Source: Bacteroidales bacterium
GTDB lineage: Bacteria > Bacteroidota > Bacteroidia > Bacteroidales > GCA-2748055
Reading direction: 5' to 3'
DNA: 64,000 nucleotides
NCBI GenBank assembly: GCA_016936975.1
Contig: JAFGWU010000071.1
Span: 1-64,000, forward strand
The notes beneath the pieces are model-generated. The model ran no database searches. It was not told the origin of the DNA and worked only from the letters and a program-made list of their open reading frames with translations. Of this stretch, positions 54,155 to 58,194 are shown piece after piece. The translations under genes were made by a program, and so were the position numbers. Numbering within the stretch: position 1 is the first letter of the stretch; every line of letters begins with the position of its first letter.

Positions 54155-54961
54155 ATGGAAACCGGTAATTTCTGGTTTGCATTTGGTTTAACCCTTTTCG
54201 CCGGTCTCTCTACCGGTATCGGCAGTGCTCTGGCCTTTTTTACCCGAAAGACCAATACGAAGTTTCTATCCATCAGCCTCGGATTTTCTGCCGGGGTTAT
54301 GGTTTATGTTTCATTCGTCGAGATCCTCCAGAAGGCGAAAGAATCCTTATCCCTGGAATTTGGAGAAAAACAGGGAGCATGGTATATGGTCCTCTCCTTT
54401 TTCGCGGGAATACTGGTCATCGCCCTGATCGACAAATTGATTCCGTCAATGGAAAACCCTCATGAAATCCACCGGGTTGAAGAAGTTGATACGGTTCACA
54501 GTAAGAACTCAAAGCTGGTGAGAATGGGAACATTTACAGCCATTGCCATAGCCATTCACAATTTTCCCGAGGGAATCGCCACCTTTACTGCCGGACTGAC
54601 CAATGCCGAGATTGCCGTTCCCATTGCCATTGCCATTGCCATCCACAACATCCCGGAGGGCATCGCTGTTTCTATCCCCGTATCTTACGGTACCGGCAGC
54701 AAACTTAAAGGCTTTTTTCTTTCATTTCTTTCAGGACTGGCAGAACCGGTAGGGGCGCTTCTGGCTTATTTTATCCTGATGCCCCTTTTTACTGAATCCC
54801 TGTTTGGTTTTCTGTTTGCCGGAGTCGCCGGCATTATGGTTTTTATTTCCATTGATGAATTACTTCCAACAGCAAGAGAATACGGACTTCACCACCATTC
54901 GGTTTATGGATTTCTGGGCGGGATGGCCGTAATGGCCCTGAGCCTCCTGTTATTCATCTGA
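54155..54961 (+). CDS. ZIP-family zinc/metal importer (ZupT-like)
   Basis: A 268-residue inner-membrane protein with eight segments. The paired signatures HNFPEGIATF (segment IV) and HNIPEGIAVSIPVSYG (segment V) contain the metal-binding His/Glu residues. The N-terminal region has the expected GLSTGIGSALAFF. It imports Zn2+ or other divalent cations. It ends 1 bp before the CDF gene, so importer and exporter are translated together, which is a curious combination. Confidence 0.93.
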   Translation: METGNFWFAFGLTLFAGLSTGIGSALAFFTRKTNTKFLSISLGFSAGVMVYVSFVEILQKAKESLSLEFGEKQGAWYMVLSFFAGILVIALIDKLIPSMENPHEIHRVEEVDTVHSKNSKLVRMGTFTAIAIAIHNFPEGIATFTAGLTNAEIAVPIAIAIAIHNIPEGIAVSIPVSYGTGSKLKGFFLSFLSGLAEPVGALLAYFILMPLFTESLFGFLFAGVAGIMVFISIDELLPTAREYGLHHHSVYGFLGGMAVMALSLLLFI

Positions 54962-54962
54962 T

Positions 54963-55895
54963 ATGACCGGAAAAAAGAGATCGGCAAAAGAAAAAAATCA
55001 TAATCACAGACACGATCTTCCTGTGAATGAGAAAAATCTGCTCATTGCCACACTGCTCAATCTCGTCATCTCCATCGCTGAATTTACGGGAGGAATTTTA
55101 TCCAACAGTCTTGCCCTGTTATCCGATGCCCTGCATAACCTGGGTGATACCTTTGCAACCTTCATTGCTTACCTCGCAACGCTGATAGGAAAAAAACCGG
55201 CAAATTACAGGAAAACATTTGGTTTTAAACGGATCGAAATCCTCGCTGCCCTTTTAAATGCAATCATTCTGATCATCCTCTGTCTATACCTTTTCAAAGA
55301 GGCTTACGAACGGTGGAACCAGCCTGAACCCATTCATTCCATGGTCATGCTGGTCGTGGCCATGATTGGATTGCTGGCAAACCTGCTTGCCGTTATGATC
55401 CTGCATAAGGATGCGGGAAAAAGTATCAATGTAAAAGCAGCTTATGTGCATCTTATCGGCGATAGCCTCTCTTCTGTTATGGTCATCATTGCCGGCGTTC
55501 TTATACATTTTTTTAAAATTTACTGGATCGATCCGATCATTACGGTTCTGATTGGCCTCTATATCATAAAAGAAGCTTTCGTAATCCTCATGGAGGCCGT
55601 CAATATCCTGATGCAATCAACCCCTTCTTCCTTAAATGTCAGGAACATCCGTTCAAAAGTTGAAGAGATACCCGGTATAAATAATATCCACCATCTGCAT
55701 ATATGGAACCTCACGGACCAGGACATCCACCTTGAGGCACATGTAGAGCTTAACGAAGATTTAAAATTGAGTGAAATCAAAATAATTCAGGAAAAAGTGG
55801 AGCAGCTTCTCAGAAGCAGATTTAATATTGATCACGTCACACTGCAATTTGAATTTAATGCGAACCACTCATCCGAATTAATTGTTCAAGAATAA
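54963..55895 (+). CDS. Cation diffusion facilitator, zinc-type (CzcD-like)
   Basis: A 310-residue exporter with a His-rich N terminus (NHNHRHDLP). The transport-site residues are the HxxxD pair in SDALHNLGD and HLIGD, as in zinc CDFs. The C-terminal cytoplasmic domain starts near MQSTPSSL and includes HHLHIWNLTDQDIHLEAHVEL. It exports Zn2+/Co2+ from the cytoplasm. It lies 1 bp behind the ZIP gene and 15 bp before a second CDF. Confidence 0.93.
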   Translation: MTGKKRSAKEKNHNHRHDLPVNEKNLLIATLLNLVISIAEFTGGILSNSLALLSDALHNLGDTFATFIAYLATLIGKKPANYRKTFGFKRIEILAALLNAIILIILCLYLFKEAYERWNQPEPIHSMVMLVVAMIGLLANLLAVMILHKDAGKSINVKAAYVHLIGDSLSSVMVIIAGVLIHFFKIYWIDPIITVLIGLYIIKEAFVILMEAVNILMQSTPSSLNVRNIRSKVEEIPGINNIHHLHIWNLTDQDIHLEAHVELNEDLKLSEIKIIQEKVEQLLRSRFNIDHVTLQFEFNANHSSELIVQE

Positions 55896-55910: not shown

Positions 55911-56831
55911 TTGAACAACCGGAATAAAATATTGATTCGTACTTCCTGGATCGCCATTATAGGCAATGCCTTTCTGGCTGTTCTAAAACTTTTTACAGGA
56001 TTTATTTCGGACAGTTACGCGGTGATTGGGGACGGGATTGACTCCACAACCGACATTGCCTCCTCGGTGGTGGTGCTTCTTGCCGCCCGTATGATAATAC
56101 GCCCCCCGAATGTAAAGTTTCCTTATGGTTATCTGAAAGCCGACCCCATTGCCTCAAAGGTCCTCTCCTTTTTCATTTTCTTTGCCGGCGGTCAGCTGGC
56201 GGTCTCTGCACTGAAAATTATTATCCTGAAGGAGCCCGTGGAGGTCCCCTCCCCTCTGGCCGTTTATGTTACTGTGATATCAATTATCGGAAAACTGTTA
56301 CTCAGTCTTATCCTGTTCCGAAACGGAAGGAGAATAGAAAGCAACATGCTGACTGCCAATGCAAAGAATATGAGAAACGATCTGTTTATATCCATTACCG
56401 TTCTGGTCGGACTGATATTCATGATCTCTTTCTCTTTTCCTGCCATTGATAAATGGCTGGCCGTGTTACTCGGATTATTTATCATGTTCGAAGCCCTGAA
56501 AATATTCCTTAAATCGAATATTGAATTGATGGATGGAATCGAAGATACACAGCTGTATTGCCAGTTATTTGAAGCCGTCAATCAGGTGAAGGGAGCCTTT
56601 AACCCTCACCGCGTAAGGGCCAGGAAAATAGGAAGCCATTATATGGTAAACCTCGATATTGAGGTGGAGCCGGAACTGACCGTCCGGGAAGCCCATGAAA
56701 TTGCAAGACAGGTGGAGAAAAGCATCCGGTCCGGCCTTCATAACATATATGATGTCATGGTGCACGTGGAACCGAAAGGCAATTTTGAAAAAGATGAAAA
56801 ATTCGGTGTCCGGGAATCGGATGTCCGCTGA
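55911..56831 (+). CDS. Cation diffusion facilitator with DxxxD/NxxxD metal site (Mn/Fe type)
   Basis: A 306-residue exporter beginning with a TTG codon; there is no upstream ATG before an in-frame stop. It has the CDF fold but the first site reads GDGIDSTTD and the second NAKNMRND, so His is absent. Asn/Asp-rich A-sites are typical of manganese CDFs such as pneumococcal MntE, so manganese or iron export is suggested. The C-terminal domain carries HRVRARKIGSHYMVNLDIEV. It differs from the CzcD-type gene before it, implying the pair covers different metals. Confidence 0.88.
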   Translation: MNNRNKILIRTSWIAIIGNAFLAVLKLFTGFISDSYAVIGDGIDSTTDIASSVVVLLAARMIIRPPNVKFPYGYLKADPIASKVLSFFIFFAGGQLAVSALKIIILKEPVEVPSPLAVYVTVISIIGKLLLSLILFRNGRRIESNMLTANAKNMRNDLFISITVLVGLIFMISFSFPAIDKWLAVLLGLFIMFEALKIFLKSNIELMDGIEDTQLYCQLFEAVNQVKGAFNPHRVRARKIGSHYMVNLDIEVEPELTVREAHEIARQVEKSIRSGLHNIYDVMVHVEPKGNFEKDEKFGVRESDVR

Positions 56832-56863
56832 CTGCATTATATTTAGTAATTGATTCTTTGAAG

Positions 56864-57598
56864 ATGATAACGAAGGAATTATCAATGGCGCAGGTCATCA
56901 TGGAACATCAGCAGTTGATTCCCCTGTTGCCCCGGTTTAACATCAAAATGGGATTCGGACATAAATCCGTTGAACAGGTGTGTCAGCAGTATGGCGTGAA
57001 CACCTGCTTCTTCCTGGAAATATGCAACTCCTACATCTATGAAGATTATACCGCGACAAAAGATCTCTCCCTTTTCTCCCTGGAAACCATGGTGGATTAT
57101 CTTAAAAATACCCATCACTATTATACCGCAATTGCGTTTCCGGCACTGGAACAAAATATCGCAGAGTTAATATCCGATTCTGAACTCTCCATCGAAAAAA
57201 AAGATCTTGTATTCAATTTTTTCAACGATTATAAACGGAATTTTCTTGAGCATATTCAAAAAGAAGAAGAAATAATTCTTCCATATATTCTTGAACTTGA
57301 AATACAATACAGGCAGGAAAAAGCAGATGAATACTTTATCCGCAAAGTAAAAAAGTATTCAATCAATGATTTTGCATTGGAACATGACCGGCTGGAAACC
57401 TCGCTGACCAATTTATCAAAACTGATTATACAATACCTTCCCCCGTTTGAAAATTGGGTCCTATGTCACCGGATCCTGATGGACCTGTGCAGGCTGGTTA
57501 AAGACCTCACCGACCACGGGAATATGGAGGATAAAGTTCTTATTCCAAGGGTTTCAGAACTTGAACATTCCCTGCTTCAGAAAAACCGGGAGGCATGA
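56864..57598 (+). CDS. Hemerythrin-like di-iron protein (RIC/ScdA-related)
   Basis: A 244-residue protein from the ATG at 56864; a TTG two codons earlier is possible. An N-terminal domain of about 60 residues resembles the DUF542/ScdA N-domain without its CCGG cysteines, followed by a hemerythrin-type helical bundle. Iron-ligand candidates are His84/His85, His130 and Glu134 (HIQKE), His174 (EHDRL) and His218 with Glu222 (DHGNMED). This fits a di-iron site sensing or binding O2 or NO. RIC proteins repair iron-sulphur clusters after nitrosative stress. Its stop overlaps the start of the LuxR gene (ATGA). Confidence 0.86.
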   Translation: MITKELSMAQVIMEHQQLIPLLPRFNIKMGFGHKSVEQVCQQYGVNTCFFLEICNSYIYEDYTATKDLSLFSLETMVDYLKNTHHYYTAIAFPALEQNIAELISDSELSIEKKDLVFNFFNDYKRNFLEHIQKEEEIILPYILELEIQYRQEKADEYFIRKVKKYSINDFALEHDRLETSLTNLSKLIIQYLPPFENWVLCHRILMDLCRLVKDLTDHGNMEDKVLIPRVSELEHSLLQKNREA

Positions 57599-58194
57599 AA
57601 CGTCTGAAATGCATCCTGGCCATCGAATCCTACATCATCCGCAAAGGGTTTATTTCGATATTAAACAAAATATCCGGGATCTTTATTATAGAAGAAATCG
57701 ATGACCTTTCCGGACTGGAAAGAATCCTCAAACAACAAAATGCCGACCTTCTGATTATCTGCAGTTCACTTTTTAACAGATGCTCCGCTCTCATGCAACG
57801 GGATCACTTCTTACTGGATAAAATCATAATTCTTGATGATGTGATCACCGGGGAAGCTCTTTCTGATGTGAAGGAAATCATGCATCTGAATGACAGCAAG
57901 GATCAGATATATACCAGGATTGAAAACCTGCTTTCTCCATTCTTCCGTAACCATGACGATCACCATCTGTTTGAATTAAGCGAACGGGAAAAAACGATTG
58001 TGAGGCATGTGGCTGCCGGTCTTACGAACAAAGAGATAGCTGAAAAGCTCTTTCTTTCGGTGCACACCGTTATCACGCATCGAAAAAACATAAGCAGGAA
58101 ACTGGGGATAAAATCAGCCTCGGAACTGACGGTCTATGCCATTGTCAATAACATAATCGATATTAACGAGATCACCGTGAGAAAAAATGGATGA
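57595..58194 (+). CDS. LuxR/NarL-type regulator with Cys-substituted pseudo-receiver
   Basis: A 199-residue regulator. The C-terminal helix-turn-helix (about 125-190) is canonical: LSEREKTIVRHVAAGLTNKEIAEKLFLSVHTV. The N-terminal part aligns with a receiver domain, but the phospho-acceptor is Cys56 in DLLIICSSLF, and the acidic pocket near the first strand is reduced to AIES. It cannot be phosphorylated normally. Overlap with the hemerythrin gene and no kinase nearby suggest it takes its signal from that protein or directly through cysteine chemistry. Confidence 0.85.
   Translation: MKRLKCILAIESYIIRKGFISILNKISGIFIIEEIDDLSGLERILKQQNADLLIICSSLFNRCSALMQRDHFLLDKIIILDDVITGEALSDVKEIMHLNDSKDQIYTRIENLLSPFFRNHDDHHLFELSEREKTIVRHVAAGLTNKEIAEKLFLSVHTVITHRKNISRKLGIKSASELTVYAIVNNIIDINEITVRKNG

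Follow-up and report, generated by a model that had tools for sequence, protein, structure and literature searches.

Two hemerythrin and regulator gene pairs of the Bacteroidales have been described in connection with iron. PG1236-PG1237 (CdhR) of Porphyromonas gingivalis and BT0519-BT0520 of Bacteroides thetaiotaomicron are induced by iron limitation (PMC10434189), the former ~7-fold and the latter 16-20-fold, together with fldA, hmu and feoB, and CdhR has been described as an activator of hmu (PMC10434189, PMC10101095). A fused form of the two proteins has been reported from Prevotella intermedia, and the authors of that study considered CdhR a hemerythrin-domain regulator of unclear mechanism that was not shown to bind iron (PMC10434189). 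Here we analysed a hemerythrin gene and the regulator gene overlapping it in a Bacteroidales bacterium (contig JAFGWU010000071.1), within a stretch of 64,000 nucleotides (nt) that is called the window below.

As in the published description of PG1236-CdhR and BT0519-BT0520, through which the likeness was drawn, the hemerythrin gene of the window is followed on the same strand by a gene for a NarL/LuxR-type regulator, and the window pair is of this known Bacteroidales kind. Unlike those pairs as described, it sits behind genes of the ZIP and CDF families. What is new here is the operator, its promoter geometry, a wider regulon, and the loss of the regulator's pseudo-receiver, with its repeated origin, in natural fusions; no description of the operator, the pseudo-receiver loss or a hemerythrin-gated mechanism was found in the literature searched, which mostly left out subscription papers, the original CdhR paper among them. 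A known gene pair thereby gains a substantially sharper functional hypothesis. We consider it likely that the pair is a kinase-independent, hemerythrin-gated activator of the NarL type that serves iron acquisition and an iron-starvation regulon. Pair or fusion is probably a built-in iron gauge, since in related gut and environmental bacteria it is accompanied by a DNA switch before genes for iron uptake; iron sensing in the Bacteroidales is poorly known.

Gene pair and conserved residues

The features of the pair are given below as positions in the window, with + for the forward strand. Counts are those of the paired and fused homologues described in the next section, and 80/80 refers to a first homologue set.

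56864..57598, + strand: hemerythrin protein of 244 amino acids (aa), RIC/YtfE-like N-terminal domain and di-iron four-helix bundle (Pfam Hemerythrin 2.4e-6, NCBIfam, fold model)
57595..58194, + strand: NarL/LuxR-type regulator of 199 aa, CdhR-like (Pfam GerE 1.3e-18; full-length fold match)
57595..57598, + strand: ATGA stop/start shared by the two genes, 4-nt overlap (open reading frames)
57595..57939, + strand: pseudo-receiver domain, ~residues 1-115 (helix 4 absent from the model; no conserved acidic pocket)
57976..58140, + strand: GerE/LuxR helix-turn-helix (HTH), residues 128-182, the most conserved part of the regulator (Pfam and alignment)
57760..57762, + strand: Cys56 codon TGC, phospho-acceptor position (end of strand 3 in the model; Cys in 3/151)
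56981..56983, + strand: Cys40 codon, conserved hemerythrin cysteine (Cys in 147/151 paired, 41/41 fused)
57113..57115, + strand: His84 ligand codon (80/80; 146/151 paired, 40/41 fused)
57251..57253, + strand: His130 ligand codon (80/80; 146/151 paired, 40/41 fused)
57263..57265, + strand: Glu134 ligand codon (80/80; 146/151 paired, 40/41 fused)
57383..57385, + strand: His174 ligand codon (80/80; 146/151 paired, 37/41 fused)
57515..57517, + strand: His218 ligand codon (80/80; 149/151 paired, 41/41 fused)
57527..57529, + strand: Glu222 ligand codon (80/80; 146/151 paired, 40/41 fused)

The hemerythrin frame opens with ATG at 56864, or possibly with a TTG at 56858 that would give 246 aa, and its stop codon ends at 57598; the regulator starts with ATG at 57595 and its frame runs to 58194. 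The overlap of 4 nt proposed in a preliminary description of this DNA is thus correct. No second Pfam hemerythrin was found in the window's own genome.

Pairing and fusion among relatives

Homologous loci were drawn from genomes of the window's order and from named genomes located through the HTH of the regulator, which were all Bacteroidales or labelled Bacteroidia/Bacteroidetes. A scan of named genomes with the hemerythrin as a single protein found nothing, and an alignment of diverse hemerythrins held no stretch conserved enough for scanning. Among 201 distinct hemerythrins, 151 have a same-strand regulator directly downstream and 41 form one protein with its HTH. The remaining 9 are unpaired, with the gene order reversed in two; one further locus is cut by a contig edge. 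In the opposite direction, hemerythrin is present at all 79 assessable loci that came from the HTH-only search. With 151/201 paired and 41/201 fused, the adjacency of hemerythrin and regulator, which the preliminary description had offered for checking, is near-obligate and not due to chance. By predicted start codons, the genes overlap in 108/151 pairs, by exactly 4 nt in 50/151. Pair or fusion is also present at loci of Bacteroides fragilis, Bacteroides faecis and Prevotella, and the first two are the nearest named relatives.

The fusions are informative for what they leave out. In all 41 the hemerythrin is joined to the HTH by a linker of 11-43 residues, against 119-159 residues before the HTH in paired regulators, so that the pseudo-receiver is deleted in every case. 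On the hemerythrin tree, at least 8 changes are needed to account for the fused state, gains and losses not being distinguished, and at least 4 are forced by the starred branches; separate fusion groups are seen in Prevotella, in Alistipes and in other Bacteroidaceae, and the tree indicates that fusion arose in several independent events. These fusions skip the pseudo-receiver, which speaks for signalling from the hemerythrin to the HTH and for the pseudo-receiver as an adaptor that can be dispensed with. Prevotella koreensis (L215) is an example of such a natural fusion. In Prevotella brunnea (L227:2244-3882) another, full-length LuxR-type gene comes directly after the fusion; its N-terminal domain is receiver-like, and it has no hemerythrin of its own.

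The regulator and its pseudo-receiver

Pfam detects no receiver domain in the regulator. A structure prediction with 25 homologues (mean predicted local distance difference test, pLDDT, 87) shows an N-terminal domain that is receiver-like, minus helix 4, and in which residue 56 is the last residue of strand 3. The model aligns with full-length response regulators of the NarL type, namely LiaR, VraR, RcsB and NarL (best E 7e-10), with which it shares the receiver-like and GerE HTH fold. The receiver-like model together with these fold neighbours places Cys56 at the phospho-acceptor position, and the earlier reading of this residue as standing where an Asp is expected was therefore sound as to position.

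As to function the outcome is different. Of the 151 paired regulators, 104 carry Asn at position 56, 19 Ser, 11 Asp, 5 Glu and 3 Cys; the carriers of Cys are scattered (the window, L052 and L218) and close relatives mostly have Ser. It had been suggested that Cys56 might be oxidised or S-nitrosated and so change DNA binding. In its favour, the residue stands where a receiver-like fold has its phospho-acceptor, but with Cys in 3/151 regulators, whereas Cys40 of the hemerythrin is conserved, and with the whole domain missing in the 41 fusions, such a switch fails on conservation and is close to excluded as a mechanism of the family; we regard it as extremely improbable. Cys56 was dropped as a functional residue, and its distribution marks it as a local accident, not a conserved part of the system.

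The same counts strengthen the idea of a pseudo-receiver that works independently of phosphorylation. The phospho-acceptor Asp is replaced in 93% of paired regulators, the acidic pocket is not conserved, with no acidic pair at positions 10-11 in most of them, and no kinase was seen in the neighbouring gene run of the window pair. In these respects, in the missing helix 4 of the window model and in the deletion of the receiver from hemerythrin-HTH fusions, the system differs from the NarL/FixJ family. An ordinary response regulator under a distant histidine kinase, with the hemerythrin unrelated to its control, would agree with the response-regulator fold and with the Asp kept in 11/151, but the 93% without it, the unconserved pocket, the lack of a kinase in the gene run, the near-obligate hemerythrin partner and the receiver-deleting fusions make this highly unlikely. 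The claim of a phosphorylation-free pair in which the hemerythrin would act on the regulator is, on comparative grounds, upheld by the neutralised phospho-site in most members, the near-obligate pairing and the repeated natural fusions.

The hemerythrin

The predicted structure of the hemerythrin (pLDDT 89; predicted template modelling score 0.84) has YtfE or Staphylococcus aureus RIC/ScdA as all of its top 12 fold matches in the PDB, and no other match is convincing. With RIC, YtfE and ScdA repair proteins it shares the two-part architecture and the di-iron bundle, and its set of four His and two Glu ligands presumably corresponds to that of RIC. It is nevertheless not RIC by the NCBIfam test, since its TIGR03652 score is 66.4 bits, under the cut-off of 204.7. 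RIC proteins have a Cys-Cys motif in the N-terminal domain; at that position the window protein has G30-F31, most homologues have Gly-Phe, and a single conserved cysteine, Cys40, is found instead. A further difference from the repair proteins is that this hemerythrin is partnered with, or fused to, a DNA-binding domain.

The ligand set proposed in the preliminary description stands for six residues, His84, His130, Glu134, His174, His218 and Glu222, which are invariant in the first homologue set. Its seventh member does not: His85 is kept in 6/80 homologues only and was rejected as a di-iron ligand for that reason. The fusions L141:5209-6094 and L142:5170-6079 have a hemerythrin part without a middle stretch or ligand residues and are perhaps metal-free regulators.

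Operator and promoter geometry

A candidate operator of the NarL type stands at a fixed distance from the -7 box before feoAB, in the window's own genome as well, before flavodoxin and TonB-receptor genes and before many of the hemerythrin genes themselves. Upstream of the hemerythrin gene, 73/188 loci hold a 20-bp palindrome, AATACCTA-N4-TAGGTATT, that scores above the 99th percentile of shuffled controls, a count that is descriptive because the scoring matrix was trained on the same regions. Written as AA-TACCTAT-NN-ATAGGTA-TT, it consists of two heptamers of the NarL consensus TACYYMT (PMC4886647) in the inverted 7-2-7 arrangement known from NarL (PMC7419079). A palindrome of this form fits the HTH class of the regulator.

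In 39/52 hemerythrin promoters, whose sites were picked by the palindrome without regard to what follows, TTTG lies exactly 25 nt after it, often as TAnnTTTG, which we take to be the -7 promoter element of Bacteroidetes. This places the centre of the palindrome near -44, and NarL is known to activate ogt from such a position (-44.5; PMC7419079). Other targets keep the 25-nt spacing to TTTG in 8/11 promoters; for feoAB in the window's family the spacing is 24 nt in 14/17. In L171, L180 and L108 an additional half-site, TAGGTATT, occurs just before the hemerythrin start codon, possibly for feedback. A search with the bare palindrome and 3 mismatches did not outperform its reversed control, and a stricter pattern took its place.

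Predicted regulon

In Bacteroides and related genomes, the strict pattern occurs 24 times in 10 genomes and its reversed control 4 times; the sites of the former precede genes for hemerythrin, enolase, flavodoxin, TonB-receptor, TetR and alkaline phosphatase. The window's family contributed no site to the operator matrix and serves as an independent test set. There, a site of >=13 bits is present at 16/22 feoAB loci, while 0/660 shuffles reached 18, and 28 genomes hold 24 sites of operator and box combined but none of the reversed pattern. The window's own genome, searched by pattern only, has exactly one combined site, a perfect match on contig C19 at 107224-107271 before a FeoA-FeoB fusion; the feoAB operator reads AATACCTATTTCTGGGTATC. 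The predicted regulon of the window's family is mostly feoAB. In the genus next to the window's, the site precedes a gene run of permease and feoAB, the gene between operator and feoAB coding for a membrane permease of ~420 aa (L277-L289).

Across 295 genomes of the order, those with a strong pair have 2.09 operator-promoters per genome (control 0.24), against 0.57 in those without (control 0.12), and such promoters are found in 77% versus 38% of the genomes (Fisher p 6e-10, without correction for phylogeny). The first genes behind 57 operator-promoter sites include 13 for TonB plug proteins, 5 for FeoAB, 5 for TetR, 3 for flavodoxin and 2 for enolase. Enolase lies behind the operator in four Bacteroides genomes (L253, L258, L259 and L262), mostly at the same promoter spacing; the main text of the iron-limitation study does not mention it (PMC10434189). 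A small His-rich protein recurs behind operator sites (L273, L410, L412, L413, L339, L349, L380 and L385), with a TonB-dependent receptor next in several of these loci.

Several points weigh against an iron-responsive activator working through this operator. It was found neither in the window nor upstream of the pair in close relatives, the pair of the window's family lacking it, and it is assigned to the regulator through consensus, autoregulatory position and co-occurrence, not footprinting. The Fisher test leaves shared ancestry in the co-occurrence, TonB receptors are abundant in Bacteroidota, and a few members of the system lack some hemerythrin ligands. In addition, two genomes of the window's family, G002 (L298; 92% complete) and G005 (L289; 88%), have the feoAB operator with no pair detected. 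These two, and the 0.57 operator-like promoters per genome where no pair was detected, would suit another NarL-type iron regulator as the owner of the operator, the pair being a mere member of its regulon and the hemerythrin a repair or iron-handling protein. We think this improbable, given the strong co-occurrence of operator and pair, the operator at the pair's own promoter in ~1/3 of loci and the match between the 7-2-7 form and the regulator's HTH class, while the hemerythrin-HTH fusions make a purely enzymatic role unlikely.

Proposed mechanism

The hemerythrin-gated activator that we favour would work as follows. Through its di-iron site the hemerythrin would report how much iron is available, or possibly iron and O2 jointly, and whether that site holds metal or not would be relayed to the HTH by contact with the pseudo-receiver, which would be a docking platform and not a phosphorylation switch. 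Under iron shortage the regulator would become active, bind the palindrome as a dimer, activate from about -44 and so increase ferrous-iron uptake. The published induction under iron limitation, and the role of CdhR in activating hmu, agree with an active state that is the iron-starved one. Human FBXL5 gauges cellular iron and O2 with a hemerythrin-like di-iron domain and regulates protein degradation in animal cells; the likeness, by description only, lies in the use of such a domain as an iron gauge.

Iron, rather than O2 or nitric oxide (NO), would be the signal. The preliminary description had favoured an O2, NO or redox sensor, under which the iron genes would be regulated within an oxygen or nitrosative response, and the RIC/YtfE-type fold does belong to a class linked with NO and oxidative damage. 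Sensing of O2 or redox is known from other bacterial hemerythrins, and a drop in cdhR under microaerophilic conditions has been reported (PMC10101095). The adjacent and operator-linked genes, however, are those of FeoAB, flavodoxin, TonB receptors and cation transporters, with no NO-detoxification or respiratory family among the 25 commonest neighbour and operator-linked families, and the described operons respond to iron limitation (PMC10434189), so that we hold sensing of O2 or NO to be the less probable account, though one with some weight.

A wider generalisation, which we would neither back nor dismiss, is that NarL-type activators of the Bacteroidales are in general controlled in this way, with a cytosolic di-iron hemerythrin that takes the place of the histidine kinase, docks on a phosphorylation-dead receiver, gates the HTH and has repeatedly been fused straight to it; it would be the iron sensor for feoAB, flavodoxin and outer-membrane iron uptake throughout the order via a single NarL-type operator. 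The circuit is testable, since it has a metal-binding partner in the hemerythrin, an adaptor in the pseudo-receiver, an operator of 20 bp whose promoter position is fixed, and a short list of targets. If true, it would explain part of the iron-starvation control of dominant gut bacteria and present a two-component regulator rewired without phosphorylation.

Neighbouring metal genes

Three genes for metal transport precede the pair in the same run.

54155..54961, + strand: ZIP-family metal transporter, syntenic in same-family loci (Pfam Zip 8e-27)
54963..55895, + strand: CDF cation efflux protein 1 (Pfam Cation_efflux 4e-48)
55911..56831, + strand: CDF cation efflux protein 2, ending 32 bp before the hemerythrin ATG (Pfam Cation_efflux 7e-39)

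The gaps in this run of ZIP, two CDF genes and the pair are 1 to 32 bp, and the arrangement is syntenic in genomes of the same family. The metal theme that had been read from the upstream transporters is borne out by the CDF, ZIP, FeoB and flavodoxin genes found beside the pair and by the NarL-type operator before feoAB. Adjacency to TonB-receptor genes alone was discounted as evidence because such genes are abundant in the phylum. Many neighbours of the pair have no link to metals, which is what a stand-alone regulator would lead one to expect; the neighbours in one group of loci, guessed from their lengths to be transporters, turned out to be Era/Der-type GTPases and a lipoprotein. Within 4 kb of the pair, FeoB is found in 6 loci, flavodoxin (fldA) in 12 and DUF2023 in 6, and flavodoxin is the commonest family among immediate upstream neighbours. 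Same-strand CDF genes lie near the pair in 22 loci, and in Alistipes CDF genes stand directly downstream of the pair or fusion.
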